Shown here: positions 3 to 34,448 of the stretch, piece after piece
Layout of the letters: each line of letters begins with the position of its first letter
Position numbering within the stretch: the stretch's first letter is position 1
IMG/VR virus record: IMGVR_UViG_3300025131_000066
Span: 1-50,058 of that record
Strand: one strand, 5' to 3'
DNA length: 50,058 nucleotides
DNA from: a virus
Program-made: the position numbers and the translations under genes
Notes under the pieces: model-generated
What the model was told of the DNA's origin: nothing
Database searches by the model: none
The model's input: the letters and a program-made list of their open reading frames with translations, nothing else

Positions 3-563
3 TTAATAAATAATCGTACAAATCCCATAGATCCTAGTAGTGGTGTTACTGCATTTCAAGGAACAGATCTTAGTGGTATGATACGTAATCCTTACGAAAA
101 CTTACGAGTGGCTAGTAAGGCCGCTGAAATACAAATGGAGCAAACAGATATAGCTTTAGCTAACACCTTAGATACTTTAAGAGTTAGTGGTATGGGGGCT
201 GGAGGAGCTACTGCATTAGCACAAGCTGCTGCTCAAGGCAAGTCAGGTATTGCTGCAAGTATAGAACAGCAAGAGGTTGCAAATGAAAAAATGCGGGCGC
301 AAGGAGAATCTCAAATGCAACAAATGAAAATGCAAGAACAACAAAGATTACAAAATATTTCCCAACAAGAAGGCGCTAGAGTTCAAGGAATGCAAATGCA
401 AGGAGCTCAATTCCAAGCTGCAATGATTGAAGATAGATTAAATGCAGATTTAGATAGAGCGCAAGCTATGTTAGATAATGAAAAAGCAAATCAGCAAAAC
501 ATGCAAAACCAAGCATTTGCGGCATTTGGAGATGCTGCCGGATCATTTGCTTCGATGGGGTAA
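3..563 (+). CDS. Small virion-associated protein A1 (5' end outside window)
   Basis: The frame is open from the first complete codon at base 3, and the ATG at 78 is probably internal. Residues encoded before that ATG (N-R-T-N-P-I-D-P-S-S) line up with N-R-Q-P-V-I-D-Q-S in the 246-residue protein at 31454-32194, so the true start lies left of the window. The two proteins also share NPYxNLxVAxKA, an EQTDxALANTLD stretch, GAGGATALA and a Q/A/M-rich helical second half. The paralogue has a membrane helix near its N-terminus, and this copy may have one in the missing part. It heads a plus-strand set with A2 and the giant A3, mirrored by the minus-strand set. The role is inferred: a small internal virion or ejection protein. 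No enzymatic motif is visible. It ends in TAA, 20 bases before A2. Confidence 0.7.
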   Translation, partial: LINNRTNPIDPSSGVTAFQGTDLSGMIRNPYENLRVASKAAEIQMEQTDIALANTLDTLRVSGMGAGGATALAQAAAQGKSGIAASIEQQEVANEKMRAQGESQMQQMKMQEQQRLQNISQQEGARVQGMQMQGAQFQAAMIEDRLNADLDRAQAMLDNEKANQQNMQNQAFAAFGDAAGSFASMG

Positions 564-583
564 TAAAATTAATATATATATAA

Positions 584-2584
584 ATGGGAACATATAGACA
601 ACCAAGCCAAATATTAGACGAGCGATTTAGTTCTTTCCGTAAAGGATTTCAAGAGACAACTGCTGCTCACGACGCTAGAACTAAATTAAAAGATCAGAAA
701 GAACTTAAGTTAAAAAAAGAACAAGCTGCTGCTGCCTTAAAGAAAAGAAAGCAATATGGAGATCTGTATAGACAAAGGGAGGAAATGAAGTCTGAAATTG
801 GAGCATTTTATGATGGTCAAGGTGCTGGTGTTGTAGGATATGATTTAGTTTATACTGAAGATGGTAAAAGTGAATTAGTTAAAGTTAGTGATGCTCAAAT
901 AGAATTATTAAAAAAGAAATATGCATCTAAAAAAGGAGATTATGATAATGATCCTAGTACTCCAGATAATTATAGAACTAGCTATGAGCTAAGTGAAAAG
1001 GAAAAAGAATTAATTAATGATCAAAAATATTCTGCTAGGAGATTAGTATATGATAAAGATAAAAATACATATCAAACTGTAGATACTGAATTAGGAGAAT
1101 TTTATCAAGGAGAATTAGAAGCAGGAAATGCTAATCCATTTGGTATAGGTATTAAAGGAAGTATAGAAAATCAAATTAGAAGAAATTATCAAGTTATGGG
1201 TATGTATGCTGAGGATCCGGATAATCCTATATATATAACAGCACAACAAAATATTGAAACAGGTATTGAACAATATAATAATTTTGTAGCAGTTATGCAA
1301 CAAAATTCTACAAATTTAAAAGGAATATTAGATTCTGATGGAAATTTAAATTCTTTAGATAGAGAGGGTGCTGTTTTAATGCAGCAAACCCCACAATTTA
1401 TGTTAAATCTAAATGCTTCTATTGATTACATGACAGGTCATAATAAACAGAGATTTAATGCAGTTTTAAGAGATGGGCAAATGACTGTTGGTTATAGAAA
1501 TCCTAGTATTTCCGATGTTAATTTAGAAATTCCTTATAATGGTTTAATTGGTAATGTTAAAAAGAAAGGATTTGGATTAGTAAAAACTACTTCACAAAAA
1601 CCAGTTGATTTAATGTATGATTATCTTAAAGCTGGGGTAAAAACATTTTATCAAGCTCAAATAAGTAAAGAAAAAAATACATATTATAAAGATGGTAAAA
1701 AAATATCAGAAACACAAGTGTTTAAAATATGGGATGAGGCTAATGATAAGATGAGAGAATTTGTTGAAGATTATTTTCGTGGTTCAGATAAGGGTGGTGA
1801 AGGGAAATTTACTAAAGGTCCTAATGCTCAAAATAATTGGCAAATGTTAGGAGGAGCTAATAAAACTGGGCATATCTTTTGGGGTGAAAGTAATTTAAGT
1901 GAAGAGCAAGTAAAAGAACAACAAGACTATATGATAGAAAAAGTTATTAATCATATGCAAACTGAATATGGAGCAGATATGGGAAGTAATAAGGGGAATG
2001 TAGCTTCTACTTGGACACAGGTTTCTCAATTAGCACCTAAATCTTCTAAACCACCAAGTAGAATAGATAGAAAAGTAGATTATTATCGTAATGAAAATAT
2101 TGAAATTTCTGGATTTGAAGATCAAGGATTTAAGCGTGCAAGTGGAAAATATACTTTTCCAGAAATAAAACAGAATCATGCTAGACTTGCAAAATCCCCT
2201 AAAAAATATGCTGAATTTTTAAATTATCTAGGCGAACAAAACACAGGTTCAAAGAAAAAGATAACATACTATAGTGGAGCAGAAATAAATAAAGAGCACG
2301 CTGCGTGGAACAAAACTAATAAAAAAGCTATTGATGATGGAGATGAATATGCAAAAGATACTGATTTCAACACTAAAGATGTATGGGCTCAAGGACCTAC
2401 AGGTGATCCTTATGTAGTAGGTAAAAACTGGATACAACTAAGTAAAGAGTTGAAAAAAATATTGGAGATTAATAATTCAGTTTGGGATGAATTACAGATG
2501 GAGTCAGAATCTATAGATAGTACAGACGAGTTAACTAAACAAGCAAGCGCTGAAGATTTATACAATATGTTAACAACAGCATAA
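584..2584 (+). CDS. Virion-associated protein A2 (paralogue of B2)
   Basis: A 666-residue soluble, charged protein of unknown fold. The N-terminus (Y-R-x-P-x-Q-x-x-D-x-R-[FY]) matches that of the 492-residue minus-strand protein at 29879-31357, and both continue into a Lys/Glu/Ala-rich helix likely to be a coiled coil (about residues 20-70 here). The middle is acidic and Tyr/Asn-rich. There is no signal peptide or membrane span. It is about 170 residues longer than its paralogue, so the two have diverged strongly. It lies between A1 and the giant A3 with spacers of 20 and 10 bases, so co-transcription is likely. By position I infer an internal cargo or ejection protein. The start ATG follows an A/T-only leader without a Shine-Dalgarno site, as is usual in Bacteroidetes. 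Confidence 0.75.
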   Translation: MGTYRQPSQILDERFSSFRKGFQETTAAHDARTKLKDQKELKLKKEQAAAALKKRKQYGDLYRQREEMKSEIGAFYDGQGAGVVGYDLVYTEDGKSELVKVSDAQIELLKKKYASKKGDYDNDPSTPDNYRTSYELSEKEKELINDQKYSARRLVYDKDKNTYQTVDTELGEFYQGELEAGNANPFGIGIKGSIENQIRRNYQVMGMYAEDPDNPIYITAQQNIETGIEQYNNFVAVMQQNSTNLKGILDSDGNLNSLDREGAVLMQQTPQFMLNLNASIDYMTGHNKQRFNAVLRDGQMTVGYRNPSISDVNLEIPYNGLIGNVKKKGFGLVKTTSQKPVDLMYDYLKAGVKTFYQAQISKEKNTYYKDGKKISETQVFKIWDEANDKMREFVEDYFRGSDKGGEGKFTKGPNAQNNWQMLGGANKTGHIFWGESNLSEEQVKEQQDYMIEKVINHMQTEYGADMGSNKGNVASTWTQVSQLAPKSSKPPSRIDRKVDYYRNENIEISGFEDQGFKRASGKYTFPEIKQNHARLAKSPKKYAEFLNYLGEQNTGSKKKITYYSGAEINKEHAAWNKTNKKAIDDGDEYAKDTDFNTKDVWAQGPTGDPYVVGKNWIQLSKELKKILEINNSVWDELQMESESIDSTDELTKQASAEDLYNMLTTA

Positions 2585-2594
2585 AATTATATAC

Positions 2595-5500
2595 ATGACA
2601 AGAATAGAATATGCTCAAACCTTAATAAACGAAGGTTTACCGAAAGAAGAATTTATCTCTTTAATGGATAAATATGACAAAGAAGATACTGATGTATTAG
2701 TGGAAGATAATAACGTGGAAAAGCCCACAGGTGTTGCGGAAGTGACTGCGAACGAAACACCTCAAGAAGAAGCAGACAATACGGAATTATACTTGGAAAA
2801 TATTTCTTTGGAATCACAATCCAACCAAGAAGAACTTGAAGAATCTCTTAATCCAGAAAACTTATTAGATATAAAAGCAACAGATGGAGATCCTGAAAAA
2901 GATGGAGATCCTGAAAAAGCTACAATATATATATCTCCGACCACTTTAAGTGCTGCAGAAGCTAGAAAAAGTTATGGTGAAGATTTATGGAATAGTATAA
3001 CACAAGAAATTAACACAGCTTCCGGAGAAACTGTAAACACTTACGGACTTTATAGTGGGTTAGATTCTATTCCGTGGAAGGATTCAGAAAATGCAGTAGA
3101 AGTAAATATCTTAGAAACAATTGATGTTGAGGATTTAGAGTTTTTAAATTTAGAAGAAGAGAAAAGTCTTAATGTTCCTTACTCAGCTAGAAATAAAGAT
3201 GGATCTAGTGATTGGAAACTTAAATATCTTAAAAAAACAGATAAAACAAGAGCATTAAAAGAAGGAGAACAATTTGTTGATAAACAAGTAATACACTTTG
3301 ATGATCCAGAAAAAAGTGGAATGGGAGCAGTTCCAGCGAAAAGTAGTGATGAATATTATTATATTCCTGTATATGAAAAACAAGGTGAAGGAGAATTTGC
3401 TGAAGTAGAAACTTTTGAAGGTTTAGCTAGACCTATTGATGCAGATGTAATTAATACTTGGAAACTAGGACCAGATCCAATAACAGAACCAGATAGCTAT
3501 GCTCCAGGAAAAGGGGGCGAACTAGAGCAGTTTGAATACTCGTCTCTTGATGTTCATGAAACGTATGCAAATCCTTTATACCAGCAAGAAAAATTAAAAG
3601 AACTTACTACGACGTTTAATGAAGCGAGAGAGGAATTAAGGCGTGATCCAAGTAACCCAGACCTAAAAGCACAGGTAACTGAGTTAAATAAAGAAGTAAA
3701 TATTCAACAAGGTCTGTTTAAAACATCACTTGCTAATAAACTACTATCTGATGCTATTGAATTTAATGTTCCTGCTGAATTTGGAAACTTACATATAAGT
3801 AAGTATTTTACAGAAGATAACGAAGGTAATGTAGAATTTAAACCCGCTCCTGAATATGCTTCATGGAATATAAAAAGAGAAGATTTTGATACTGAAGAAG
3901 AATACATAGAAGAAAGAAAAAATAGAAACGTTCATGCTTTTGAAAAAACTATAAATCCAAGGGAATTGGTTGGTGATATAAATAAAAATTTTGGATATCA
4001 TGGTTTAGTGGCAGATTGGGATGAAGGTTATAATTATATTAGCGTATATAAAAATGGTGTATATGACTCTGAAGGAACTACATCTGGTTTAATTAATCTA
4101 GAAAAAACAGCTGAAGCTAATGGATTGAAACCTAGTGACTTTGGAGTAGATGAATGGTATCAACTGGGCGATGGTCTTAATTTTCATGCAACACAATCAC
4201 AAACGGCTAAAGATATAATAAAAACAAAACTAGAAGAATTAGGCTTTTCTAAAACTGCTTTATTAAAAGAGACAGTGGCTGAAGGAGATCTGCCATTCTT
4301 TATGACTTGGGCTAAAAAAGGGGAGTATGAAAACGTAGGGAAGGGTTTAGAAAATTTATTCAATTGGATGAATGATAATAAAGGAGAACAAGCTCTAAAT
4401 AGACAAACGTTTTCTATATATGAAAAAAATCCAAACAAGGAATCTGACAAATTCCAAAAGGAGTTAAAAAAGCTACAAGATAAAGCAAGTAAAAGTGTTA
4501 ATACAAATGGGGCTATTGAAAAAAAATATCTTAACTCTTCTAAAAAATATATCGAAATTTATGATGAGAGGAAAGTAGCTGCTGCTGAAATTGGTCTAGA
4601 ACATAATAAAACTAAAGCTAGTCTAGAAGAAATTGCCCAAGAACGCCATAATGTAAATGTAGATATCGAAAATCTTAATTCAATGCATGAAACTAAGAAG
4701 AATGAAATCATGCGTCAAGTTGAGATGTTGGAACCAGGAATAAATTATGAAAGTGAAAAAGAAATATTAATAAAGAAATTTTTTGATTGGGAAGAAACAA
4801 ATTATAAACCTCAATATGAGAATTTAAAAACTACTTGGGATAATTTAGAAATTAAAAAAGATGAAATATTTGCTTCTTACGAAAGTTCTTTTGAAGAATA
4901 TCAAAAACATGATGCAAAATTATTAGAAAAATCCCAAAAACAACAGTCACGTAGCACAAAATTTTACAATCAAATAGTAAATAATTTAGAAAGTGCTAAC
5001 TTATATCATAACACTTTAAGTATATATAAATTTACAGATAGGAATATAGATAAAAAACTTATTCTAGCATTAAGTGAAACTGAAGGTAGAGGTAATGTTT
5101 TTACTCCTTTGTGGAATGCTTTTACAAAGAAAATTACGGAGGCAGCGGGAGGTGAAGGAATTGTATTAGCAGATTTAGGATCTTTAGTAAATGATTTATC
5201 TTGGCAAATGGGGTGGATAAGTGATAAGAAACACCAGTCAAATGATTATATGTATAATTCTGTACAAAGTACTATGTCAGGCCAAGCTGGTGCCGCAGCC
5301 AGTGTTATGAAAGATGATGCTATTGATGATACCTATGCTAAAGCATATGGGGAAAGTACTTTAGGTGGAATGTTAATATGTATTTCAGAAATGGCAGGAG
5401 CATATGTAGGTGGAGGATTTGGAATGCCAGGAGCTATTGGTTTAGGAACTGGATTTTTCTTTTCTAGTTTAACTAATTCTCAAGAAAAAATACACAAGCA

Positions 5501-8500
5501 AAAAGCGTCATTTATAGAAAACTATAAAAAGGCAAATGAAGGCGCTAGCACAAAACAAGCTTTAGGCGCTTTTGAAGAAGCTTTTCCTAAAAGTATGCAA
5601 ACAATGTATTCTTATACTCAAGCTGCCGTAGAAGGAGTATTAAGTTATGTAGGAGGAAGAATAATGGGTGGTTCTATTAGAATAACTCCAAGAATAGCAG
5701 ATGCAGTAACAAATAAAGTTTTAAGTGTATTAACTAAAAGAGGAGGTACAATAACAACTGCAGATATTAGTTTAGCTGTTAATGAAGTAATAGGTAAAAG
5801 AATGACTAAAGTTTTTAGCACCGGGAAAAGAGCGTTTGGTACTGGTATGGATGAAACTTTAGAAGAATTATCTCAAGAATTTGCAGCTATAGGAATAGAT
5901 AAAGTATTTCAAGATTTAGTTGATGGACAAGTAGACTTTCAACTTCCAGACATGGAGAGTCAAGAGTGGAGAGATCAAATGGTTCATTTAGTAAAAGTAA
6001 GTTTTGGAGTAGGAGCATTAGGTGGAATATATCAAGCTTCAATAAAAACTGATAAAGTTATAAATGAAAGTAAATATGATAAACTTGATGATAGCCAAAA
6101 AGCAGAGTTAGAACTTCTTATGAATATGCGGAATAATAATTTGAGAAGTGACCGTCATTTAAATAATGCCTTAGATCAAATTAATTCAGATCTTGAAAGT
6201 GGTAAAATTAATGAAGAGGAAGCTCAAGCAAGAATAAGAAAAGCCGAAGAATTACACAAAGTACATAATGAAATAGATAATAATCTAACTGGATATTCGC
6301 AATATAAAATAGCTCAATTACTGTTGCAAAGAAATAAATTAAATATGCTATTAGATAATTTAGATCCTAAGGCAGCTAAAGGTATAGTAAATACCATAGA
6401 TGAAATAAATTCTCAAATAGAGTCTATTTCAGGAGATAAAGCTAATATTAGAACTGAAATTGAAAGTACTGAAGAAGGAGTTCAAATGCAGCGAAAGTTA
6501 GGTGAAAAAATAATGGAGAGTAGAGGCGGAGGTACAATAACTTTTGCAGAAGATCAACAGCAATTCCAACAAGCTATGGAAGAGCAAAATGTAGGATTAA
6601 CTGCAATTGATTTAGATGGTAATGTAGTAGATCAATCTAGTGCTGATGCAATGTATTTACGAGATGGCACCGGAAATATAATAGTTAACTTAGAAAAAAT
6701 GACTGAGTTATCTTCTATTTCCGCAGTCACACATGAGGTATTACATGATATTACAGCAGATCAACTTGCTAACATGTCTCCTGAACAAAAAACAAAGTTA
6801 ATTGAAGATTTTAAAACGTTTTTAAACCCTAAAGAATTAGCAGCAGTTCAAGCTAGATTAGATAAAGATTATAAAGGTGCTGGAGCTACAACAGAAGAAT
6901 GGTTTAATGCTTTTCATGATGAAATAGTTGCAGGAAGAATCAAGTATGATGAAGATGTTTTTCAACGAATGGGGAAATGGATTGTAGATAATATTCTAAG
7001 ACCAATTTTTCCTGGTAAATTTAAAAAAGATTTATCTTTTGAAAGTGCAGAAGGGGTTTATAATTTTATAAAAGATTATTCATTACAAACAAAAAGTATT
7101 TTAGAAGGAAAGCAAGCAGATTTTACTGGAGAAATTAAAGAAAAAGTTTATAATAGAACAAATCCACTGGCTACAGATGAAAGTATAACTACTGTAAAAG
7201 AAGAAACTATTACATTAGATGAAAATGGAGATGTTACTTTACCTACTGATGTAGCTACATCTATGAATTTAAGTATTTTAGATGAAACTTCTCAAAATAA
7301 AAGTAAACGTCAAAATAAAAGAAATGAAACTATAGATAATTTTTATAATAGTTTTGGAAGAGATAGAAGTAGAGAAGAGTGGACAAAGTTTTTGCAAACT
7401 CCAGAAGGTATAGATATCAGAAATAAAATGATAACTGAATACATGCCTGATATGATTGCTATTGCTAATCAAAAAGGATTTGATAGTCCTTTGGATGTAG
7501 CGTTTGAAGGAATTGTACCGTTAGTTAAACATATAGAAGCGTTTAATCCTAAAGCTAATAATGATTTAGCTGGTTATATAGGTGGATATTTAGGGTTAAA
7601 AGTAGGGACAGGAGCTAGAAATATACAAAAGAAAGAAGATACTAAAAGTATTGAAGAATTAAAAGAACAAGGTAAACAAATAGTTGATACAGAAACTACT
7701 AGTACTACTAAAGAAAAACCTGAACCTAGCAAAGCTTTATTAAAAGACAAATTAGATAGTAAAGCTGATGAACATTATACTTCATTATTAAGTGAAGCAG
7801 CTAAATTAAAAAAATCAGAATTACCTACAAGTTATAAAAGTACTCCTAAATTAAATCCACAAGGAACAGTGGAAATGTTTTTAGAAGACCCAAAAGCGAT
7901 TTATACTAAAGGTAAAAGTAAAGGTAAAAATATAGCAGAATCTATAACTGATAAATGGTTAAATAATAAAGATCTTAATAAACAAGATATAGAAGCATTA
8001 CAACCTTTTATAAATAAGCATAAAGATGCAATTATGTCTGGTGCTATTTCTGAAGGACATGATCCATCAGGTAAATCTACCGGAGTACAAAACATATTAT
8101 TAAAAAGTTTATTTGACAAAGGTGCGAGTGCTAAGTTTGCTAAAACAGGTAGTAGACAAGGATTAGATTTACAAAGTAAACGTAATATAACTCCAGAGTT
8201 TGAATCTAAATTTTTAGATTTAATGGGTTTAACTGCTGCTGGTACTCCTAATATTAGAAATAAAAATAAATCTAGTCAAGCTATTAAAGCTGTTATTGAT
8301 CAAGTGAATAAGATCATGAGCAATCAAGCTATTAGAGAAGTAAACCCTGAAGCTAAGAAAAGTGGGGAAGGTAAATCTAAAGTAATGCTAAGTAATAATG
8401 CTCAAGTTGTAGATAACATGCGCAGAGGTGATCTTACTCAACAGGTTGCTGAACAATTAGGGGTAGAACTAGGCGTTGTTCCAAAAGTTACGGTTACTAA

Positions 8501-12947: not shown

Positions 12948-12957
12948 ACCAATCAAA

Positions 12958-13332
12958 ATGAATATAAAAAAGAGTCCCTTAAGACAAGTAAATTTACATT
13001 TATCTAAAAATTCAAAAAATAAAGATGAAAATAAAATCACCGCTGGAGGTTTTAGTGAATTACAAAAAAGAGAAGGAAATATTGGTGCTGGAGGAGCTTT
13101 AAAATTTAACTATCCAAAAGGATCTACACAATTTGGAATTGGTGGTTTTAAACCTATTACCAAAGATCCTTATTCTGATTTTAAAGGAGCTGGAGGATTA
13201 AATGTTGAACAAAGTTTTAAGTTGGGTGATAAATGGAAAGGTAGTATTAAAGGGGGGCTTAATAAAGGAATTGGGAAAAATTTTGATCTGAAAGATTTTC
13301 AATTTGGAGTTTCATTTACTAAAAAATTTTAA
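12958..13332 (+). CDS. Small glycine-rich beta protein of unknown function
   Basis: A 124-residue protein that I do not recognise. It starts 10 bases after giant A3 and is probably in the same transcript. The sequence alternates polar and hydrophobic residues with glycine turns (GAGGALKFNYPKGS, GAGGLNVEQSFKLG, SIKGGLNKGIG) and ends in an aromatic residue (VSFTKKF), which resembles strands of a small beta-barrel or beta-sheet protein. There is no signal peptide, so it is not a normally exported outer-membrane protein. The N-terminus is basic. No counterpart is visible beside giant B3, where a 247-residue fibre-like protein sits instead. It could be a virion component delivered with the giant protein. 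That is an inference from position only. Confidence 0.6.
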   Translation: MNIKKSPLRQVNLHLSKNSKNKDENKITAGGFSELQKREGNIGAGGALKFNYPKGSTQFGIGGFKPITKDPYSDFKGAGGLNVEQSFKLGDKWKGSIKGGLNKGIGKNFDLKDFQFGVSFTKKF

Positions 13333-13363
13333 AAATAAATAATATAAACTAAAAAAAACAAAT

Positions 13364-16492: not shown

Positions 16493-16529
16493 TCAAGAAA
16501 AAATAAATAATATATAATATATAATATAG

Positions 16530-18389: not shown

Positions 18390-18407
18390 ACTTAATATAA
18401 CTAAAAA

Positions 18408-18442
18408 TAAAAAGGGGACCTCGTAATGAGATCCCCTTTTTT
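18408..18442. terminator. Bidirectional intrinsic terminator at the convergence point
   Basis: A hairpin with arms GGGGACCTC (18414-18422) and GAGATCCCC (18428-18436), one C/A mismatch and a 5-base loop, is flanked by an A-run on the left and T6 on the right (18437-18442). It lies between the stop of the reductase (plus) and the stop of the 247-residue gene (minus) and can serve both. Confidence 0.85.
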
Positions 18443-18448
18443 GGTTAC

Positions 18449-18486
18449 AGGAACTTTGGGTATGGTGCCCATTTTTCTTAGTTCCT
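18449..18486. repeat. Nested inverted repeat between convergent genes
   Basis: Outer arms AGGAACT (18449-18455) and AGTTCCT (18480-18486) enclose inner arms TGGG (18457-18460) and CCCA (18468-18471). It sits just past the stop of the minus-strand 247-residue gene. It lacks a T-run for a classic terminator. It could protect or shape a 3' RNA end. Confidence 0.55.
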
Positions 18487-18492
18487 AAATTA

Positions 18493-19236: not shown

Positions 19237-19285
19237 TGTTTTTTGTTTTTTATTGGTTATTAATTGTTTGTTATTTTGTTATTAA

Positions 19286-22200: not shown

Positions 22201-25200
22201 CTAAGTCTATTGTATATGTTTTACCTTCTACTTCAAAATTACTTATAAATCTAAAATCATGTTTCCTCCATTTCAGATCCCGTTTAGTATTCATGCTGAA
22301 CTTAACCTTAGCTTGTTGTGTTTTACCTTTAACAGGTAGCGCATCTAAAGCATCTTGCACCGCTTCTACATTAGCACCATGATCATCTGCAAAATAGAAA
22401 TCATTATAACCTTCGGCTGCTTTATCTACAATCCACCCTGATTTAGCAAGTGGAGAACTATCACCTAATCCAGTTATATTATTTATAGGTATATTTAATC
22501 CTAAACTACTTAGAAATTCACTAATAGGCCCAGCAGCTTCTTGAGTTCTAGCAGTTAAAACAAATACATCTTCAGTTCCTCTAGCTGCTTGAATTTTTTT
22601 AGCAACTTCAAATAAAGGTCCTTTTTCACCATCAACAACTTTATTAAACTCAGAAAAATCCCATGTAACGCCATCAGCTTCCATCTGAGTACCTTTACTA
22701 GCAAACTCCGCAGGACTTATTTTACCTCTTATCGTTTCGTTTAGCTTTGAATTAACTTTGTTAATAATTTCAGAAGGTAATTTTTTAATTGATTCATTAG
22801 CATCGACTTCAAAAAATGATTCTCCAAATTTACTCTTGTAAGCTTGTTTATTAGCGTTAACAGAATTCCAAGCAGTTTCTACAATTTTATCTTTTAATGA
22901 TCTTTCTTTTCTATTTCTATTTCTCTCTAAAGCTGTTTCTTTCGATGTTTCTACGTATATCATAGAAACTTCGTAACCTTTATCTTTTAAAGCTTTAACT
23001 TTAGCTTCAGTAGCTTTAATAGAAGCACCTGTTCCATCTAATATAACACCCTTTCCCTCTGAAGTATATTGATTTAATTTTTTATCTGCAATTTTTATAG
23101 CTAATGCTCCTAATTCACCTCTAACAGAGCGTTGAACAGCATCATATCCCGCTTCTTTAGCATCTAATCCAACTAACTTTTTAGCCCATTCTAAGGATAT
23201 ATCTTGATTAACTACTTTATATCCTTGATTTTGTAATCCTAATTTCTTTATAACAGTACTTTTACCACTTCCAGGTCCACCTGCCATTACAATTGCTTTT
23301 AAGTCTGAAGATGGTTTACCAGTTGTATTAGGTTTGTTATAAATAACATTACTTTTAGTTTTAGCTAATGTATCATCAAAATCAAATACTCTAATCTTTT
23401 TAACAGGAGCATTAGGATCTCTAGCAATTTCTAAAGCTTTATCTAGTATACCAAGTTCTCTTATAGTTTCAGCATTAGTGGAGGATTTAGAAAATTTAGT
23501 TACTTTACTTTCCTTTACTACAATTTCGTTTTTATGAGTAGCTTTAGTTTTTTCTACTAACATAGGTAAAGTAGAATCAATTAACTTTTTAGAATCACTT
23601 TTAGAAAAATTAGTTGTTTCCTGTTTATTAATTACTTCGCCTTGAAACTCTATAATATCTGGAGAAATTTTAACGCCTTTAACATCAACATTAAATACGT
23701 CTGCAATACTAATATTTCCAGCTAATATTATATTATTTGGATTAATACCACCATTATTAGTAGCTACATTTTCATTAAAATATCTAGCCCAAATATTATC
23801 AGTAATTTTCCATCCCTCAGGAGTTTGTTCTTTATAATCAAACTTTTCTCCATTAGGTTTAATACCTACTAATTTATCATCACTTTTATTTAGCAAAGCT
23901 CCTTGAAAATAATTATTCTTTATATTATCAAAGTTTTTGTTTACTGTACCCGCAAATGCTTGACCAAATAAATATTTACCAACAATAGAAGCAGGTAAAG
24001 TATGTTCTTGAGTATAATTTCCAAAAGCATAACCTTTTTCATAAAATTTCCAGGGAGCAGCTTTTCTAATAAAATGATTTTGAGTATAACTAATTGAAGA
24101 TAAAGTAGCACCTACGAAAGCAATTCCTTCTGGAGTTTTCATTATTTCCTCGAACATTTCAAATACTTTCTCTAGACCTTTTATAGAGTTTTCTTGACGT
24201 TTAATAAATGCAGGATCATTTAAAGCTTTTTCTAAAGGTAGTTTTTTGCTTAGAGGATTTTCTTTCTTTAACATGTCGTTAAAGATTTCAGATTCTTTTG
24301 CAAATTCCCCTCCTTCTTTTTCTACATTATTTATCCAAGCGTCAGCTTCAACTACATTTCTAAAAGGTAAGTTACCTTTGTACCCTCTTAATGATTCTTC
24401 AGAATAAACTTCAAATCCTTCTGCTTTAATTTTCTTTAATAAAATTTTATCAGCTTTATTTAAAATAATATTTTCTGAAGTTCCCTGTAATGATCTCCAA
24501 AAACTTTTAGGTAACTTGTTAATAAGTCCACTATCAACAGCGAATTTTAAGAATCTTTTACGACCTTCGGGAGTTCTCATATCTATACGCTCTATACCAC
24601 TCTTTTCTAATGCTTTATCTATAATCTCGTTCCAATTATTGTTTTCATTTGCAAAGTCTCCAGGTAATATTTCTCCACTAAAATTTTGTTCTTTTATAAA
24701 TTCATTTAATTTAACTTTAGCATTTGCTGATTTACTAAACTTAACACCTCCTGGTCTAGCTATTATATCTTTTACTTTAGGTTTACCTATTTTAGATTCT
24801 TTTTCTGTAATACTTTCTGATAAATCAATTGTCTCTTCTTTTTTAATTTTACCTTCTGGAGTGTAAACAGGTTGTACAGGATTATCTACTATCTCATTAA
24901 ATTCATTTTTACCTAATACTTCTGCAAAAAACTTTGGTAGTTTTCTTTTTAAAACATCTTGTCTTATATTCATTAAATAATCCGTCACTTGAGCTGGTGT
25001 AGGATTTAGTGTTTTCCATAATGTATTACCTGCAGTTAAAGATGTTGATTCAGGGATTCTTCCTTCATCAATAGCTTTTTGTGTTTGTGTAGGATTCATT
25101 TGCTCTATTTCCATTTCATAGAAAATATCCCAATTAGATCTTCTCATTACAGCAGGATCTACTTTGTTTAAAGCTATTAAATCTTCAGCAAATTTTCCAA

Positions 25201-28200
25201 CAAAAGTTTTCATACCTTTTTTATTAGGCATTATATCATAAATCCTTGCCGCAGTAGTGGCAGACATGTGATCTACAAATCCTTTAAAGAATTTTTTAGG
25301 ATTATCCATTGATGCTCTTTTAGGACTTCTTAAGTAATTTATTATATCTCTTTTAACTAAATTTTCTTGAGCTGTAGTTAATCCTAATTTCTTAGCAATT
25401 TTAGAAGTTTGAGGTTTTATCTTTTTTAATCTAGCCTTCATTAAAGCTACATCAGTAGCATCTTCTGGACTCATTTCTTGAGAAACTAATCTTTCACCTA
25501 CGGTGACTTTACTATCTTCGCCACCTACTTTACGTTCAATAGGAGTTGTTTTAGGTTTTTTCTTGTTTATATTCTGTATATCTCCAGCAGCAAAATTAAC
25601 TATAGCTTTTTTACCAAGTAACCACCCAAATAAACTATTTTTAGAAGCATCATATTCTGATTGATATTTGTCACTTATTTTTCTTTTAACATCTCCAATA
25701 AATTTTGGATTCATATCTAAGTAAGCAGAGCTTACAGTTTTACCTATTGAACCATCTAATGTATTGGCTTGTTCTATTTCCATCAATCCATCCCAAAATT
25801 CTGGTGCAGGATCTATAATGTATTTTCCTGTCTTTTCAAAATCTGGTGCTTTTTTACCACTAAATTCTTCTTTAGTATTGAATTTTAGATTTTCAGCAGG
25901 TCCAGTAATTTCATCAAAAATTTCTTTAAGTTCAGTTTTTGAATATTTAGCTTTAGATTTTCTAGTTGTTTTCTTATCTTTAACTTTAGCTTTAGCTTTA
26001 GGTTTTTTTACTTTATACTTTTGTGGTCCTCCTAGAAAAGATTTATTATAGTTCTTTAAAAATTCAAATGCTCCCTCTGGAGTGTTTAACAGCTCGGCAT
26101 TTATTTCTTCCTTGGACAATCCTAATTTATATTTAAAGAAGTCACTTAGCATGTCAGCTATTTTCTGCCAAAACGGTCTATTTTGTCTTTCGTATTTTAA
26201 ATCATTATCATTAATAGCATCACTAATAGTAGTAAAAACTTCTTGATTATAATCGGCTTCAGTATAAGCTCCACTTTCTACATCTTTTCTATAACTAGCT
26301 AATCTTTGTTTTATATTAGCCCAAGTTCCAGAGGATATAGCTCCACCTGTATCTTTCAAGCTTTCAGCTTCCATATATGTTTCTAAAGATCTAGCTATTT
26401 CTGCAACTTGTCCTTCCTCTAAAACATTGTCTAAAATAAAATGAAGAGTTTCGTGCCTAAAACCTTTTTGACCAGTGAGATTTTTATTATTTCTATCTTC
26501 GACCATTTGCTCCATAATATTTTTTCCAGAATATAGAGTAAACTGTTTACCAAGATCTTTAGAAGTAATAGCATGAGTTGCCCCACCCATTAAATCTGCT
26601 GCGTAGCTTTCTACATTTTCATAAGTAGGAGCTGCTTCTACACTTATTCCCTCTGCTTTACTTCTTTTGATGATATCTTTGTTTTCATCTTCCATCATCT
26701 TTGTAAGAATTTTTTTAGCCTCAGGATGATTTTCTAGCTCCTCTATATTATCTATGTTAATACTTTGTAAATTATCAATACCAAGTGATTCTAATACTTT
26801 ATTTACAGCATTCATTTCTTGACCTATGGTTTTCTTATAATCACTCGTTAAAGTGATGGGAGATTTAGGTAAAGAACCTTTAGTTAATATTGCATCAATT
26901 TCATTCGCGATTTCTATACCAAAATTTTTATCTCTAATAACACCATCATCAATTAATTTTTGCTCACTTAACAAATTAGCTAAACGTTGTTTGATTTTAT
27001 CGTTTCCAAATATTTTGTTTTTAATACGACCGGTAACCCCTGTGCTATTTTTTATTTTATTATTAACAGCATTGTTAATTATAGCATTTTCTATAATTTT
27101 ATTACCTTCTTCTTGTGTAATTCCTTTGTTTGGATCTTTTTTATTTTCTTTTACTAATTGATTAACAAACTTTGTAACTCTATTTACACTATGATTTTCT
27201 TTAACCATAGTATTTAAATCAGTCAATCCTATCGCAGTTTTTTGTGCATTATCAAAAAGTGCCTTATTTATAACTTTAACAGCAATACTACTGTGATTCC
27301 CAAACTGACCACCAATCATTTCGTTAACAACTTCAGTCATTTGAATACCTTCTCCAGACACAACTTGGGCTGATAATTCACCTAAACCTTCAAAAACTGG
27401 ATCAATAACTGTTTTGGCGGCTATATGCGTCGCTACTTGCCTTAAAGGACTAGCTAATGGATTAACAAATCCTCCTGCAACTTTACCAGAAACCACATTC
27501 ATAAGACCAATAGGAACACCTCTATATATTCCCAATGTAAATGCTTCTTGTAGCATATCTTTACTTTTCTGTGTTTTACCACTTAAAACTTCTGCTATTT
27601 CATCTGCATTAGTCATATCAACACCTTCACGATTCATTACTGTTGAATAAGCACCTCCTGCTTCCATAGCATATCCTGTAGTTGCAGACCAAATGTTCAT
27701 CCCCATTTGAGCACCTTTAATAAATCCTGGAATTGCTCCAACACCCGCTCCAGTAGCACCTATACCAGCACCAACAGCTCCACTTCCAACAACTGTAGGG
27801 ATAAGAGTTTTTCGTCCAGTGCTAGCAAATTGAGTCATTGAACTTAACCATAAAGTAGAAAATATTTCTATAGGATTTTGCTTTAACAATTCCATTTGTT
27901 CACCCACTGTTTTGGCATTAATGTATTTTTCATATACTCTCGTGCTTAAAATTCCTTGTGAATAAGCGTTTTCTAATGCAATTTTTTTAGAAACTCTAGC
28001 TAGTTCTTCAGGATCAGACATGTCATTAATTCCAAATGCGATTTTAACAAATTCTTCATTAACAACTCCTTGTGACCAACCTTTTTTAGCATCGTTTAAA
28101 AGTCCATAAACAGCACCTTCTACATATTCGCCTCTAACTCTCTCAACGTCTCCAAAGTTCATTATTAAGCTCAGATTATTAGCTTTTTCATTCAAATATG

Positions 28201-29848
28201 CTTGCTTAGTAGATAAAGTTTGTAATTTTGATAATTCAGCATTTATAGGTGCTGCTTTTGTATTATACAATTCTTGTGATTCTGCTATTAAAGCATTAAT
28301 TTGATTAACTTCTTCTTCCGATTCTACTTTATATCCACTTAATTTATCAAATCCAATTCCATTAGTAATATTCTTTAATCTATCATCTATATCTTTTTGA
28401 GCTAAATCATATTCTTGCATATACTCTTCCAACTCTACACCACCGGTTTTTGTTGAAATATCTTTTTTTATTATTACAGCTTCATCTGTTATTGCTTTAT
28501 TTTCTTTTACTATTTCTTCTTGAGATTCTAATGCAGCTTCTTTAATAACTTCATTAGACTTAGCTTCAACTTTAGCTGCACGATTTTCTTCACCTTGTAA
28601 AAGTTTACTATATTGAGCTCGTTTTTCAGATAACTTTTCTTTATATGCATCAAAATATTTTACTTTTAACTTTCCATTTTCATCAAAAAGATGTGGGTGG
28701 GTTTTTTTAGCCGCTTCTACGAACGGCTCAAGTTCTTCATATGACGCTCTGCCTCCTAAATCTTCACCCATAAAAGGTATATCCCATGGATTTTCATTGA
28801 ACTTTTTGCCTGTATCTTCTAATACACCTCCAACAAATTTTGCCACTGATTCAGGTAGCCAAGGTAAATTCGCTGCTATTGCGCCTTCTGCTACTTTACC
28901 AACCATTGCAGCTTCTACATTACCAATAGTACCTTGTACCATATTAATAAATCGCATTTCGTCATTAATATATTCAGCTTGTTTTTGTATTTTTTTAAAT
29001 TCCTTATAATCTAATCCTTCACTGGCAAATACTGTTGTTTTAAAATTTTCTAAAAGTGGATTTTCATCTGCTTCTTTTTGAATCTCTTCAGCGGTCAATT
29101 CAGATATATTTTTAACCTTACTTGTAGACATGTTTCTAAGCACCTCTTTAAGATCTAAATCTGTGTCACCTAAATATTCTATAACTTCATCTTTCTTATT
29201 TTCTTGTATCCAAGCTTTCATCTCATTTAGACCTTCACTATCTACAGATCCAAAATTACCTACACTAAATTCCTTTTCTTTAATTTTACTTGGATCAGAT
29301 GATACTGTTCTTACAGTTATATAATCACCCATTCCAGATTGCTCAAAAGTAAATCCATATTTACTAAATCTTTCACTAAGAGATTTTTCAAATATTTCTT
29401 CTAATTGAAGAGCTTGATTTCCTGGAAGTAAACGAGGTATTTCTTCCGCTTCTTTATCTAATTGAGCAAAATCAGTTTCTAATTTATCTTCTGGATCATC
29501 AATAAGAAATTTATCAACATCAACTTCTTCTACTTCTTCTACTTCTTCTTCTTTTACAACTTCTTTTCCTCCTTTTAATGTTAAATCATTAGCAGCTAGT
29601 AAATCATCCAAAGAAACATTGTTATCTTCAGCAGTACTTGTTAATTCCTCAACTGACCATTCTTCTCCCTTTGAATTAATGTATAATTCTTCAGTTTCTA
29701 TATCTTCAGCTTCTTTTAGTATTAAATCATTTGCTTCAATAAGCGCTTCTAATGTAACATTATTAGCTTCAGCTTCGCTTAATAGTTCACTCTCCAACCA
29801 TTCTTCCCCGTTACTAGTTATATATATACTTTCTTCTAATACAGCCAT
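19286..29848 (-). CDS. Giant multidomain polyvalent virion protein B3 with zincin and HAD/kinase
   Basis: A 3520-residue paralogue of A3. Segments in order: two tandem 42-residue N-terminal repeats (about 6-90); acidic linker; coiled coils; Gly/Ala-rich hydrophobic region (about 670-850) likely to interact with membranes; zincin HETLH at 1132-1136 with possible third ligand Glu1203; EHTLP with His1949; HAD motif I at 2156-2160, nested P-loop kinase (Walker A from 2190), HAD motif II Thr2432 and DDH near 2488; a GNAT-like insert (about 2520-2665) absent from A3; the shared C-terminal block with NTPMQY near 3130; then a Lys/Glu-rich tail with a second pair of tandem repeats. The spacing from the EH motif to the HAD motif is nearly that of A3 (207 versus 216 residues). 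It follows B2 in the late operon. A role as injected cargo with protease and end-healing or nucleotide activities is inferred. Confidence 0.85.
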   Translation of the reverse strand: MAVLEESIYITSNGEEWLESELLSEAEANNVTLEALIEANDLILKEAEDIETEELYINSKGEEWSVEELTSTAEDNNVSLDDLLAANDLTLKGGKEVVKEEEVEEVEEVDVDKFLIDDPEDKLETDFAQLDKEAEEIPRLLPGNQALQLEEIFEKSLSERFSKYGFTFEQSGMGDYITVRTVSSDPSKIKEKEFSVGNFGSVDSEGLNEMKAWIQENKKDEVIEYLGDTDLDLKEVLRNMSTSKVKNISELTAEEIQKEADENPLLENFKTTVFASEGLDYKEFKKIQKQAEYINDEMRFINMVQGTIGNVEAAMVGKVAEGAIAANLPWLPESVAKFVGGVLEDTGKKFNENPWDIPFMGEDLGGRASYEELEPFVEAAKKTHPHLFDENGKLKVKYFDAYKEKLSEKRAQYSKLLQGEENRAAKVEAKSNEVIKEAALESQEEIVKENKAITDEAVIIKKDISTKTGGVELEEYMQEYDLAQKDIDDRLKNITNGIGFDKLSGYKVESEEEVNQINALIAESQELYNTKAAPINAELSKLQTLSTKQAYLNEKANNLSLIMNFGDVERVRGEYVEGAVYGLLNDAKKGWSQGVVNEEFVKIAFGINDMSDPEELARVSKKIALENAYSQGILSTRVYEKYINAKTVGEQMELLKQNPIEIFSTLWLSSMTQFASTGRKTLIPTVVGSGAVGAGIGATGAGVGAIPGFIKGAQMGMNIWSATTGYAMEAGGAYSTVMNREGVDMTNADEIAEVLSGKTQKSKDMLQEAFTLGIYRGVPIGLMNVVSGKVAGGFVNPLASPLRQVATHIAAKTVIDPVFEGLGELSAQVVSGEGIQMTEVVNEMIGGQFGNHSSIAVKVINKALFDNAQKTAIGLTDLNTMVKENHSVNRVTKFVNQLVKENKKDPNKGITQEEGNKIIENAIINNAVNNKIKNSTGVTGRIKNKIFGNDKIKQRLANLLSEQKLIDDGVIRDKNFGIEIANEIDAILTKGSLPKSPITLTSDYKKTIGQEMNAVNKVLESLGIDNLQSINIDNIEELENHPEAKKILTKMMEDENKDIIKRSKAEGISVEAAPTYENVESYAADLMGGATHAITSKDLGKQFTLYSGKNIMEQMVEDRNNKNLTGQKGFRHETLHFILDNVLEEGQVAEIARSLETYMEAESLKDTGGAISSGTWANIKQRLASYRKDVESGAYTEADYNQEVFTTISDAINDNDLKYERQNRPFWQKIADMLSDFFKYKLGLSKEEINAELLNTPEGAFEFLKNYNKSFLGGPQKYKVKKPKAKAKVKDKKTTRKSKAKYSKTELKEIFDEITGPAENLKFNTKEEFSGKKAPDFEKTGKYIIDPAPEFWDGLMEIEQANTLDGSIGKTVSSAYLDMNPKFIGDVKRKISDKYQSEYDASKNSLFGWLLGKKAIVNFAAGDIQNINKKKPKTTPIERKVGGEDSKVTVGERLVSQEMSPEDATDVALMKARLKKIKPQTSKIAKKLGLTTAQENLVKRDIINYLRSPKRASMDNPKKFFKGFVDHMSATTAARIYDIMPNKKGMKTFVGKFAEDLIALNKVDPAVMRRSNWDIFYEMEIEQMNPTQTQKAIDEGRIPESTSLTAGNTLWKTLNPTPAQVTDYLMNIRQDVLKRKLPKFFAEVLGKNEFNEIVDNPVQPVYTPEGKIKKEETIDLSESITEKESKIGKPKVKDIIARPGGVKFSKSANAKVKLNEFIKEQNFSGEILPGDFANENNNWNEIIDKALEKSGIERIDMRTPEGRKRFLKFAVDSGLINKLPKSFWRSLQGTSENIILNKADKILLKKIKAEGFEVYSEESLRGYKGNLPFRNVVEADAWINNVEKEGGEFAKESEIFNDMLKKENPLSKKLPLEKALNDPAFIKRQENSIKGLEKVFEMFEEIMKTPEGIAFVGATLSSISYTQNHFIRKAAPWKFYEKGYAFGNYTQEHTLPASIVGKYLFGQAFAGTVNKNFDNIKNNYFQGALLNKSDDKLVGIKPNGEKFDYKEQTPEGWKITDNIWARYFNENVATNNGGINPNNIILAGNISIADVFNVDVKGVKISPDIIEFQGEVINKQETTNFSKSDSKKLIDSTLPMLVEKTKATHKNEIVVKESKVTKFSKSSTNAETIRELGILDKALEIARDPNAPVKKIRVFDFDDTLAKTKSNVIYNKPNTTGKPSSDLKAIVMAGGPGSGKSTVIKKLGLQNQGYKVVNQDISLEWAKKLVGLDAKEAGYDAVQRSVRGELGALAIKIADKKLNQYTSEGKGVILDGTGASIKATEAKVKALKDKGYEVSMIYVETSKETALERNRNRKERSLKDKIVETAWNSVNANKQAYKSKFGESFFEVDANESIKKLPSEIINKVNSKLNETIRGKISPAEFASKGTQMEADGVTWDFSEFNKVVDGEKGPLFEVAKKIQAARGTEDVFVLTARTQEAAGPISEFLSSLGLNIPINNITGLGDSSPLAKSGWIVDKAAEGYNDFYFADDHGANVEAVQDALDALPVKGKTQQAKVKFSMNTKRDLKWRKHDFRFISNFEVEGKTYTIDLARHVDSKDYTLSFGLDRKDKDGFLKKDHFVTGTGNAAEVLSIISNGVVDFVKKNKVNSINFTSFEGSRTRLYTTLTKLWANKLGWKHEIESDSKQAASFVISKTKTSFATHVPPVSKLKFSKGPVKKVLDVIDVKGKVQQAKIKFSKSIDQKFNEIIEDKTNIKAFKEFSPAQAKLRGKSKGRFKFFVPPSAEDFVGLLYRVLGKGKKGDAQMAWFKEHLLDPYARAMADITRDRVQMMGDFKALKKTLKNIPKNLRKEAFDGYTYENVARIYAWNKQGSNIPGLSKTDLAKVEAFVAKNPEIQVFADQLIDITKGGGYSIPTDSWLSGTITTDLISVLNDNKRKTHLKQWQDNIDLIFSDKNLNKLEAAFGSNYREALENMITRMKSGNNKTTRGSDRLANRFLDYVNNSVGTVMFFNMRSAVLQLISSVNFINWGDNNIIAAGKAFANQKQYWKDFMHLMNSDFLVDRRNGLKINVSESEIADAAATSKNKAKGVIAYILKKGFLPTQFADSFAIASGGASFYRNKVNRYKKEGMSQKEAEAKAFNDFREIAEESQQSSRPDRISQQQASGLGRIVLAFANTPMQYTRLIKKASLDLMNGRGDWKSNVSKIVYYAAIQNVIFNALQQAIFAMAWGDDDEELDEAKKEKMYSIANGMLDSILRGTGIAGGILSVVKNLSLEVWDRSGRKRPEYADAAYRELDVSPPIDIKVSKLRQAANNYEYNKDLIESKGFAIDNPAWLSLGYVLSSTLNVPLDRLILKMNNVKFALDSDEETWKRVAAILGWPEWQLRSAKEQEDYKQLRKQEKKDHKNLQKWEVIDGDEIKALKKDQQVNILTEIGLSKEEIKDLKYEEDRVNRILEEYEKDEKKVTKILEKNRNITSAAIKEEEKVKKKEEKKKEEEKKKEEKKERKKILKEDRTTTQARLYKLRKADQVDTLISLGLSDAQIKALRYEEDRVREIERLYKEKNK
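21768..21833 (-). repeat. Right-hand direct repeat flanking the GNAT-like insert (coding sense)
   Basis: Encodes VLDVIDVKGKVQQAKIKFS. It is the second copy of a segment also present at 22295-22366 and resembles the single copy in A3 (VLDVIDVKGKVQQAKVSLS) more closely than the first B3 copy does. Confidence 0.75.
22295..22366 (-). repeat. Left-hand direct repeat flanking the GNAT-like insert (coding sense)
   Basis: Encodes ALDALPVKGKTQQAKVKFS, the diverged first copy of the 21768-21833 segment. Between the copies lie about 460 bases that have no counterpart in A3. Confidence 0.75.
22309..23407 (-). repeat. HAD-kinase segment, near-identical inverted copy of 9774-10872
   Basis: This is the partner of the A3 segment in inverted orientation, with no indel between the shared HAD motifs and most differences at third codon positions in the stretches examined. 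Confidence 0.85.
29523..29552 (-). repeat. Short low-complexity tandem repeat in B3
   Basis: Nine-base units encode V-E-E repeated three times in the acidic N-terminal linker of the giant protein. Confidence 0.7.
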
Positions 29849-29878
29849 TATTTTAATTTCTTAGATTTAACTTTCATT

Positions 29879-31357
29879 TTACCACCACTCTTTCATTAGA
29901 AATGCCATAATTGGATAACCAACAGCCATATCAATTTGATGTAAAGCTTTTCCTCCGGTTCCTTCGTAAACTTTTGTTGTCCAATCCTTGTCTTTAGAAT
30001 TTTTTAATTTATCTAATTCTGCTTTCTTTTCTTTTGTAAGTTTTGAAATTTCTTCTTTTCCTAGATTTACTATTTGATCTTTAGTCATGTTTTTGGTTTT
30101 CTTGACTATTTTATCTTGATCTTCTTTCGTAAAGTAATTTCCTGTAGTGGTTGGTTTATTAGCTGGTTGTCTATCCTTATAGCTGGGTTTATCTCTTGTA
30201 TCAATGCCAGTTGAGCCCGTAGGAAGAACATCTGTATCCTTACCTTTTGGTATATTAAGCTTTGTGCGAGTGTCGTCTGATGCTTTTACTTTACCACCTT
30301 TAGTTGAAGATGCTTTACCTTTTTTCTGCTTATGACTATAGCTACTATCCCATGTATTGTCAAATATTTGTGCCAAGTAATCATCATCTGTATATTGTCT
30401 AGATACGTCTTCAGATGGGTAAAGAGAAGCCCATTTACTTACCCCACCGTCGGCTAAGAAACTATCCATGTAATTTCTACCAAGCTCATCGTTTAACAAA
30501 TAATCTCTTGCTAAATCTCTATCTAATTGACCATTTACTAATAAAGCTTCATTTTCTTCCAACTTTCCAAACATATCTTCCACTTCTTTATAATCCTCTT
30601 GATCAAACTGTTCATTAGTTATAAAATATTTTCCATCAGGACTTTCTGCGTGATTAGTTGCCCACGCTGTTAAATCTGTAGAACTTTGAGCGTCAAACTT
30701 ACCATCAGTAATAGTACCTAAAGACATTCTAGTATTTCCACCTGGATCTATAGTTATATATAAATTATCTAAATTATCATCTGTCATAGCATCTAACATA
30801 GCTATTATTTCTGGATTTCTCTGCATCTCTGGGTCTTCTAATAAAGTACCAACTGAATTAGCTCCGCCTTCGATTCCAGCTTGTTTTGCTTTTTGATATT
30901 CTACACGTGCAGCTTCCCAATTAGCAATATCTGTAGTAAATTTATCTACTTTTTGGATATAAGAATTAGTAAGTTCAGTTATCTCTGATTCATCACCTCC
31001 TTCAGCTTGTATTTGAGATATTTGATTATTTAACTCTGTGCCCCAAGTGTTAAATATACCATTTATTTGATCATCAAATTTAACACCTTCTTCAGCTCCT
31101 CCTTCTTTAGTTCTACCGTATACTCCTTCTCTAAACTTATCTGTTGTTTTTTTAGCGGCCATATATGCTGCATCAGATCTTCCTTTGTTAACTCTTTTAG
31201 ATTTATCTATAACCTTTTTATAAGCAGCTTTTTCTTTTTGCTTTTGTGCTGTAAAAGTATCTAATCTATTAGTAACATCTCCCATCCATTTAGCAATTCC
31301 TTGAGAAATGATAGCGTATCTATTATCTATAACTTGTTGTGGATTTCTATAACTCAT
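29879..31357 (-). CDS. Virion-associated protein B2 (paralogue of A2)
   Basis: A 492-residue protein. The N-terminus (SYRNPQQVIDNRYAIISQG) corresponds to that of the 666-residue A2, followed by a basic coiled coil (about 40-80) and an acidic, Asp/Glu/Thr-rich middle. A Lys/Thr/Gly-rich linker (about 345-400) precedes a helical region and a short hydrophobic C-terminus (GYPIMAFLMKEWW) that could insert into a membrane or pack against the giant protein. It lies between B1 and B3, with 30 bases to B3. Position and paralogy suggest an internal or ejection protein. No enzyme motif is visible. Confidence 0.75.
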   Translation of the reverse strand: MSYRNPQQVIDNRYAIISQGIAKWMGDVTNRLDTFTAQKQKEKAAYKKVIDKSKRVNKGRSDAAYMAAKKTTDKFREGVYGRTKEGGAEEGVKFDDQINGIFNTWGTELNNQISQIQAEGGDESEITELTNSYIQKVDKFTTDIANWEAARVEYQKAKQAGIEGGANSVGTLLEDPEMQRNPEIIAMLDAMTDDNLDNLYITIDPGGNTRMSLGTITDGKFDAQSSTDLTAWATNHAESPDGKYFITNEQFDQEDYKEVEDMFGKLEENEALLVNGQLDRDLARDYLLNDELGRNYMDSFLADGGVSKWASLYPSEDVSRQYTDDDYLAQIFDNTWDSSYSHKQKKGKASSTKGGKVKASDDTRTKLNIPKGKDTDVLPTGSTGIDTRDKPSYKDRQPANKPTTTGNYFTKEDQDKIVKKTKNMTKDQIVNLGKEEISKLTKEKKAELDKLKNSKDKDWTTKVYEGTGGKALHQIDMAVGYPIMAFLMKEWW

Positions 31358-31373
31358 ATTTTTATTTATTTAT

Positions 31374-31463
31374 CTAATTAAATTGGGCCATTAATGCGGC
31401 CGCATCTGATACTGACCCTGTGAAATCTGAAGGATTTTTAGGAGTCTGACCTCCTACCCCTTT
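31374..31463 (-). other. Candidate -1 ribosomal frameshift site and extension of B1
   Basis: The heptamer A_AAG_GGG (31457-31463, minus strand) matches the X_XXY_YYZ form in the B1 reading frame and directly precedes the TAG. A -1 shift gives 27 added residues (VGGQTPKNPSDF...ALMAQFN) ending at a TAG at 31374-31376, 16 bases before B2. In the -1 frame a TGA at 31467-31469 closes the other side, so the usable overlap is only about 14 bases and contains the heptamer. A 6-bp hairpin (TAGGAG/CTCCTA) begins right after it, closer than in typical sites. Confidence 0.5.
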
Positions 31464-32194
31464 ACCTCAGCATGCCCGGCTATTCCAGAACTTACCGAAC
31501 TAGTGGCACTAGTTACACCACTCATCATAGCTTGTGTAGCTTGTGCTCCATATGCAGCGGCTTGTGCTTGAGCATTTTGTTGCTGTCCAGATAATCTATC
31601 CAATTGTACCTTATCTCTACTTTCTTGTCTGCCCCAAGCTCCAGTTTCTTCTGCTATTGCAGCTTGTTCTAAATTCATTTTTTGTTGGGCTGCACTTGCT
31701 TCACCTTCAGCTTTAAGTTTTTGATTTTGTACTTCTTGATTTTCTAATGATGCTCCAACTTGAGCTTTAGATGCAGCAGCCATTCTAGCTAATGCGGTTG
31801 CTCCTCCAGCTCCACTACCACTCTGATTTATTTGATCTAGTGTATTAGCTAACGCTTGATCTGTTTGCTCTATTTTTAAGTCTGAAGCTTTATTAGCTAC
31901 AGCTAAATTAGCATAAGGATTAAACACTTGATCTTTCATTGCTCTAATCTTTCCAGATTGATCAATAACTGGTTGTCTGTTTTTTTCTAAAGCTTCTAGT
32001 TTCTTTTTAGCAGCGCGCTCTTTAGCTAGTTGTTTTTTTTCTTTATTTTTAGCTTCAATAGCTGTATATGCTGCTGATCCAAGAGCTATTACTCCACTAA
32101 CTATACCTGTTACTAATCCAGTGGCTAGTTTTGGTCCATGTGGTTCTATTAGTTCTGCAAGTGGACTATGCATTATTTCAATTATATCTATCAT
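31454..32194 (-). CDS. Small membrane-anchored virion-associated protein B1
   Basis: A 246-residue protein with a probable transmembrane helix at about 24-45 (LATGLVTGIVSGVIALGSAA) followed by a basic helix, the NPYANLAVANKA block shared with A1, a GAGGATALA turn and a Q/A-rich helical half. The start ATG overlaps the stop of the upstream cupin gene as ATGA, indicating translational coupling. In the zero frame it ends at a TAG (31454-31456). The -1 frame stays open for 27 further codons to 31374, and a slippery heptamer lies directly before the TAG, so a longer product ending ALMAQFN may be made. By analogy with small ejection proteins of podoviruses it may help form a channel across the cell envelope. 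That is inferred. Confidence 0.75.
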   Translation of the reverse strand: MIDIIEIMHSPLAELIEPHGPKLATGLVTGIVSGVIALGSAAYTAIEAKNKEKKQLAKERAAKKKLEALEKNRQPVIDQSGKIRAMKDQVFNPYANLAVANKASDLKIEQTDQALANTLDQINQSGSGAGGATALARMAAASKAQVGASLENQEVQNQKLKAEGEASAAQQKMNLEQAAIAEETGAWGRQESRDKVQLDRLSGQQQNAQAQAAAYGAQATQAMMSGVTSATSSVSSGIAGHAEVKG

Positions 32195-34414: not shown

Positions 34415-34448
34415 AACTAATATTATTACTTATTTAATGATTGTTTTA

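Follow-up and report, generated by a model that had tools for sequence, protein, structure and literature searches.

Introduction

The phage crAss001 carries the cargo proteins gp45 and gp46 together with the RNA polymerase-related proteins gp47, gp49 and gp50; gp45 has an N-terminal TM helix, and the cargo lies within the virion module (PMC10172136). Giant proteins of the N4 type carry an HExxH zincin (PMC12633501, PMC5512222), and for polyvalent proteins suspected cassette recombination at two loci has been described (PMC5512222). One precedent for a phage-encoded T9SS cargo has been described, in Cryophage (PMC7468147). Here we analyse a window comprising the whole of the 50,058-base linear IMG/VR record IMGVR_UViG_3300025131_000066, which contains no N bases and in which an earlier note had described two three-gene virion cassettes, A and B, on opposite strands.

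Results

Portal, terminase, major capsid protein and muzzle-like tail proteins placed the window with the Cellulophaga/Flavobacterium (Elemovirus) podophages and MW202828, and the window phage is a crAss-like podophage of Bacteroidota. The nearest contig in the head genes matched at 86% in portal. The tail module is Crassvirales-like, with crAss_MUZ detected in g1467 and crAss_MUZ_C in g579, both above cutoffs. Of the related contigs, L280, L281 and L286 were binned in the Aliivibrio MAG JAAGZR01, an assignment that looks like a binning error, and G128 in a Flavobacteriaceae MAG. One MAG held three giants on three contigs.

The late operon of relatives ends with tail genes followed by genes for a small protein, a middle protein and a giant, and then at least one small gene; these are often followed by a T9SS-like gene, a terminator and, on the opposite strand, a ribonucleotide reductase (RNR) gene. 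The T9SS-like gene combines a conserved secreted N-terminal domain (QCDNGTNYYPS) with a T9SS-type C-terminus. In 41 relatives, as for cassette B in the window, this operon lay beside the head and tail genes; the relatives encoded a small TM/coiled-coil protein, a middle protein and a giant of 2,400–3,600 aa, the genes for the small protein and the giant being separated by exactly one ORF in every case (41/41). RNR was convergent to the giant in 39/39 contigs that held both, and the tag AGTTCCTGTAACC preceded the terminator between them in 33 of these 39. The same tag occurs once in the window, at the end of the B operon. Since the window's sole tag ends the B operon and the B giant is convergent to RNR, as in relatives, cassette B is canonical. 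The features on this side of the window are as follows.

32675..38852, minus strand: muzzle-like tail genes g579 and g1467, lying before cassette B (Pfam crAss_MUZ_C, crAss_MUZ)
31454..32194, minus strand: B1, small protein with an N-terminal TM segment and an NPYANL motif
29879..31357, minus strand: B2, middle protein, assigned by its slot and N-terminal motif
19286..29848, minus strand: B3, giant polyvalent protein of 3520 aa
22305..23407, minus strand: HAD-kinase block of B3, assigned by DNA identity to A3
19826..21829, minus strand: conserved C-terminal domain of B3 (BLASTP)
18493..19236, minus strand: g247, glycine-rich protein of 247 aa, last gene of the B late operon
18409..18455, minus strand: bidirectional terminator hairpin with the conserved late-side tag AGTTCCTGTAACCAAAAA
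16530..18389, plus strand: ribonucleotide reductase, cobalamin-type like (phrog_367, E 7e-130; TIGR02505 below its cutoff)

No family match was found for g247. The membrane segment of B1 spans aa 24-45, and 33/41 relatives were hydrophobic near the N-terminus of the small protein; the N-terminus of A1 lies off the contig.

The coordinates and ORFs given previously for both cassettes proved correct. Cassette A, reported as three genes, consists of five, with A1 cut by the left end of the contig.

3..563, plus strand: A1, small TM/coiled-coil protein of the NPYxNL family, truncated at its 5' end by the contig edge
584..2584, plus strand: A2, middle coiled-coil protein (81% to L288, 50% to G003)
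2595..12947, plus strand: A3, giant polyvalent protein of 3450 aa, assigned by BLASTP to B3
6732..6746, plus strand: HExxH zincin-like motif of A3 (aa 1380; motif call)
9774..10876, plus strand: HAD phosphatase-like domain of A3 with inserted P-loop kinase, a block in common with B3
10821..12827, plus strand: conserved all-helical C-terminal domain of A3 (BLASTP; AlphaFold)
12958..13332, plus strand: g124, small gene occupying the slot that follows the giant, assigned by position
13364..16492, plus strand: g1042, protein of 1042 aa with a signal peptide and, at its C-terminus, a T9SS sorting domain (PF18962 in Pfam and TIGR04183, both above cutoff)
16493..16529, no strand: unusual junction, with RNR immediately preceded on its own strand by a late-type gene

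In the 93%-identical relative L288, the start of A1 lies 133 nt further left, placing about 44 codons outside the window. No homologue of g124 was found. The g1042 protein also has PKD and MAM domains, and alignment showed that its N-terminal domain is that of the gene ending the late operon in relatives; from these domains g1042 is predicted to be a phage gene whose product is a surface protein exported by the host. Our first idea, a tail spike, was replaced by a T9SS cargo after the Pfam match. Scanning viral contigs with g1042 alone returned no match, but an alignment of the N-terminal domain did find relatives. Copies of this domain were present in 21 viral contigs, among them other, larger phages (76–115 kb). 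The five genes A1-A2-A3-g124-g1042 mirror the way in which the late operon of relatives closes (giant, then one or more small genes, then the T9SS-like gene) and lie upstream of RNR, on its strand and without a terminator of their own; they are a second 3' end of a late operon.

The gene-by-gene pairing proposed for the cassettes held for two of the three pairs. A1/B1 (56% over 88 aa, E=2e-23 by BLASTP) and A3/B3 are homologous and lie in the same order on opposite strands. A3 and B3 aligned over ~1,350 C-terminal residues in two blocks (58% over 676 aa and 54% over 673 aa, E=0), and at 54–58% identity over more than 1,300 residues this likeness is not due to chance. Their N-terminal ~2,000 residues showed 14–36% identity with saturated codon positions, and the membrane-proximal N-terminal regions of the two giants showed no homology. 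A2 and B2, by contrast, occupy the same slot and share only a motif of 20–26 residues (BLASTP, 20 residues, E 0.009; profile-profile comparison, 26 residues, probability 7.5%), and their pairing is based on the N-terminal motif [ST]YRxPxx[IV]xDxR and on position.

Across the family, HExxH was present in 63/66 giants and the HAD motif in 54/66. The C-terminal ~670 residues were 42–80% conserved in the main alignment; AlphaFold modelled this domain as all-helical with low confidence (pLDDT 62), a fold search on this weak model was empty, and the conserved C-terminal domain of A3 was not detected in any phage record. Among the relatives searched, the N-terminal thousand residues of A3 matched only G003, and those of B3 gave no match. 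Pfam and motif searches identified HAD and kinase domains, which together with HExxH, a motif call for zincin as opposed to a profile match, assign the giants to the polyvalent proteins. Pfam, PHROGs and NCBIfam detected no RNA polymerase domain in A3 or B3. By analogy with what has been proposed for polyvalent proteins (PMC5512222), the giants would consist of a conserved chassis and a variable payload processed by the zincin.

One internal part of the giants departs from this pattern of divergence. A 1,103-bp stretch (9774-10876 on the plus strand, 22305-23407 on the minus strand) is 87% identical at the DNA level, with third positions outside it near saturation. Its product is a HAD phosphatase-like domain interrupted, immediately after HAD motif I, by a P-loop kinase (in A3, HAD motif at aa 2402 and Walker A at 2436). 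The insert matched Pfam AAA_33 and zeta-toxin and, weakly, PezT and adenylate kinases in the PDB; its best outside match was about 73%, and it was found in only 8 loci versus about 93 with the HAD part, G003 being without it. In T4 Pnk the kinase precedes the phosphatase, unlike the A3/B3 block, where the kinase is nested within HAD after motif I. In a tree of the HAD part, A3 and B3 were sisters (98). These comparisons show that the block was exchanged by recombination between giants of the A and B types, an event that need not have happened inside a single genome. The divergence of the block (13%) versus that of the A–L288 split (7%) makes the exchange look at least as old as the split, and the exchange alone is therefore no sign of co-residence. 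The block had been considered as proof of co-residence and was dropped as such, as A-like and B-like segments occur together in the single-giant G003 too, and A and L288 differ by only 7%.

Trees of the remaining parts separated the two cassettes. A3 grouped with G003 in the C-terminal domain tree (SH-aLRT 100), with B3 beside G025 in another clade (99), and A1 grouped with G003 in the small-protein tree (SH-aLRT 100; family alignment of 24 sequences); in neither tree were A and B mutually closest. The DNA of A1-A2 was 92.8% identical to L288, where these genes follow g374, muzzle and g579 in a late operon of the ordinary kind, and the portal of L288 is only 68% identical to that of the window. 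Taken together, the trees and the identity of A1-A2 to a phage with so different a portal establish A as a xenologue: what had been read as a paralogous duplication is a pair of cassettes from two phage lineages, with an internal block swapped later. For the C-terminal domain of A3 versus G003, dN was 0.14 and dS 1.3 (dN/dS about 0.10), and on these substitution rates A3 is under purifying selection.

An artefactual join at about 18.4 kb had been suggested as a possible source of the arrangement. That site is the conserved convergent giant/RNR terminator, with the tag in 33/39 relatives, and there is thus no abnormal junction there; the abnormal junction lies between A3 and RNR, at 12.9–16.5 kb. 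The sequence AAAAATAAATAATATA is common to the interval 16493..16529 and the leader of g1042 (13331). In relatives, the gap between giant and RNR ranged from 187 to >4,000 nt. A T9SS-like gene on the RNR strand was located upstream of RNR in G071 and downstream in G006, and the T9SS-like gene changes sides around the convergent terminator. Given this variable gap and a T9SS-like gene on either side of RNR, the RNR neighbourhood is a natural exchange site. At L183 (9117-11860) and L259 (2-1846), a T9SS-like gene on the RNR strand was upstream in one phage and downstream in another.

That phages normally keep one set was borne out: 94/94 related viral contigs with the giant (10 + 47 + 10 + 27, of which 29 were at least 55 kb) carried a single copy of its C-terminal domain. 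Extra short matches in G067 and G124 were pieces of one frame-broken copy. The two-cassette arrangement was seen in 0/94 other contigs and in 0/39 contigs with RNR; many of the 94 are fragments in which absence is weak evidence, and the long contigs weigh most.

Discussion

We favour the acquisition of A as a recent second cassette over an assembly artefact, and hold the arrangement to be real with a probability somewhat above even. In this reading, B1-B2-B3 would be the resident cassette, comprising a small membrane protein, a middle channel or adaptor and a giant polyvalent protein, made late, packaged and probably injected before the DNA. A1-A2-A3 would be a recent acquisition from a different lineage within the same group of phages, now located upstream of RNR on the opposite strand. 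The C-terminal ~670 residues of both giants would serve as a packaging and ejection chassis, with the N-terminal half a lineage-specific payload around the conserved zincin motif, and the zincin may cut the polyprotein after delivery; the 1.1-kb HAD-kinase block would have recombined between A- and B-type giants. A merodiploid phage of this kind would either load two payloads or be in transit between cassettes. For the account as a whole, with resident B, acquired A and a phage that is most likely merodiploid, we put the chances at about level.

The main competitor, a substantial possibility that we rate below even, is an assembly chimera in which the 3' end of an A-type late operon was fused to a B-type phage during in silico assembly, at A3/g124/g1042/RNR. 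This would explain why the arrangement is unique among the contigs examined and why the A block corresponds exactly to the 3' end of a late operon, with A1-A2 present at 93% DNA identity in a normal canonical operon elsewhere. The contig begins within A1, leaving A's left boundary off the contig, and T9SS-like genes common to A-type and B-type phages could have seeded a false join. A chimera fits less well with a sequence of 0 Ns in which all ORFs are intact and the junction falls at clean gene boundaries with a proper leader, g1042 and RNR sharing the leader motif. At the junction, nothing is left over from the A phage's terminator or its RNR, nor from the gene that normally lies upstream of RNR in the B phage, and the longest exact A3/B3 match (51 bp) is in the wrong orientation for simple repeat collapse. 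Codon usage did not discriminate between a shared genome and two.

Two further explanations accept both sets as real. If a single ancestral cassette had been duplicated within the genome and its copies had then diverged as true paralogues, the same order and the homologous ends would be accounted for, but the separate affinities of A3, A1 and B3 with G003 and G025, and of A1-A2 with another phage, argue against this; origin by duplication from one ancestor was ruled out by the trees, and we consider it scarcely credible. Alternatively, A may be no virion set, being expressed early or in the middle phase from the RNR strand, with A3 acting as an intracellular effector. No strong plus-strand terminator was found from A1 to 18.4 kb, and A and RNR resemble one transcription unit; however, no early role is evident for A1 or A2, whose families are always in the late operon of relatives, and we regard this reading as improbable. 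Acquisition of A by a phage with resident B remains our preferred reading. A stronger form of it, in which two exchangeable ejection cassettes of distinct lineages are stably maintained by the phage on opposite strands, the shared C-terminal chassis loads or switches payloads and the enzymatic blocks of the giants are reshuffled, is speculative and in our estimate rather unlikely. If real, the arrangement is a natural merodiploid for a DNA-ejection machine. It would show swapping of fast-evolving injected giants, with a whole late-operon end moving as a unit to the convergent RNR boundary, and would allow a direct question: can one virion assemble with two ejection sets?

Gene order, protein sizes and the TM segment of the small protein make the proposed identity as ejection proteins plausible, although homology to the ejection proteins of T7, P22 or N4 was not found, and PDB sequences gave no match to a profile of either the small protein or the giant C-domain. 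By analogy, both cassettes may be ejection/cargo sets packaged in the virion. They share with T7 gp14-gp15-gp16 and P22 gp7-gp20-gp16 (PMC8954989) the small/middle/large order, the TM in the small protein and a mosaic large protein, but the window giants are nearly three times larger and have no detectable homology to these. Closer in size is N4 gp50-gp51-gp52 (Schitoviridae), three ejection proteins from one operon (a giant of ~3,500 aa, 644 aa and 150 aa; PMC12633501, PMC5512222), and the zincin is a further point of resemblance; N4 differs in having one set, and A3/B3 differ in lacking a detected RNA polymerase domain and any sequence match to it. The available text of PMC5512222 (Iyer et al. 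2017) does not name a HAD with nested kinase in an ejection giant among polyvalent proteins, but the giants resemble these as large multidomain injected proteins with zincin and variable domains. In crAss001, the muzzle-type tail genes are homologous and the slot of the cassette is that of the cargo genes, whereas the cargo proteins were not homologous in searches and form one set. The trios of Elemovirus (Flavobacterium phage elemo, gp20-gp19-gp18) and MW202828 also differ in being one set only, and otherwise correspond in their post-tail slot and in their sizes of about 200, 450 and 3,694 aa; elemo gp18 and gp20 are annotated as structural, and B3 residues 497-981 are 26% identical to the MW202828 giant.
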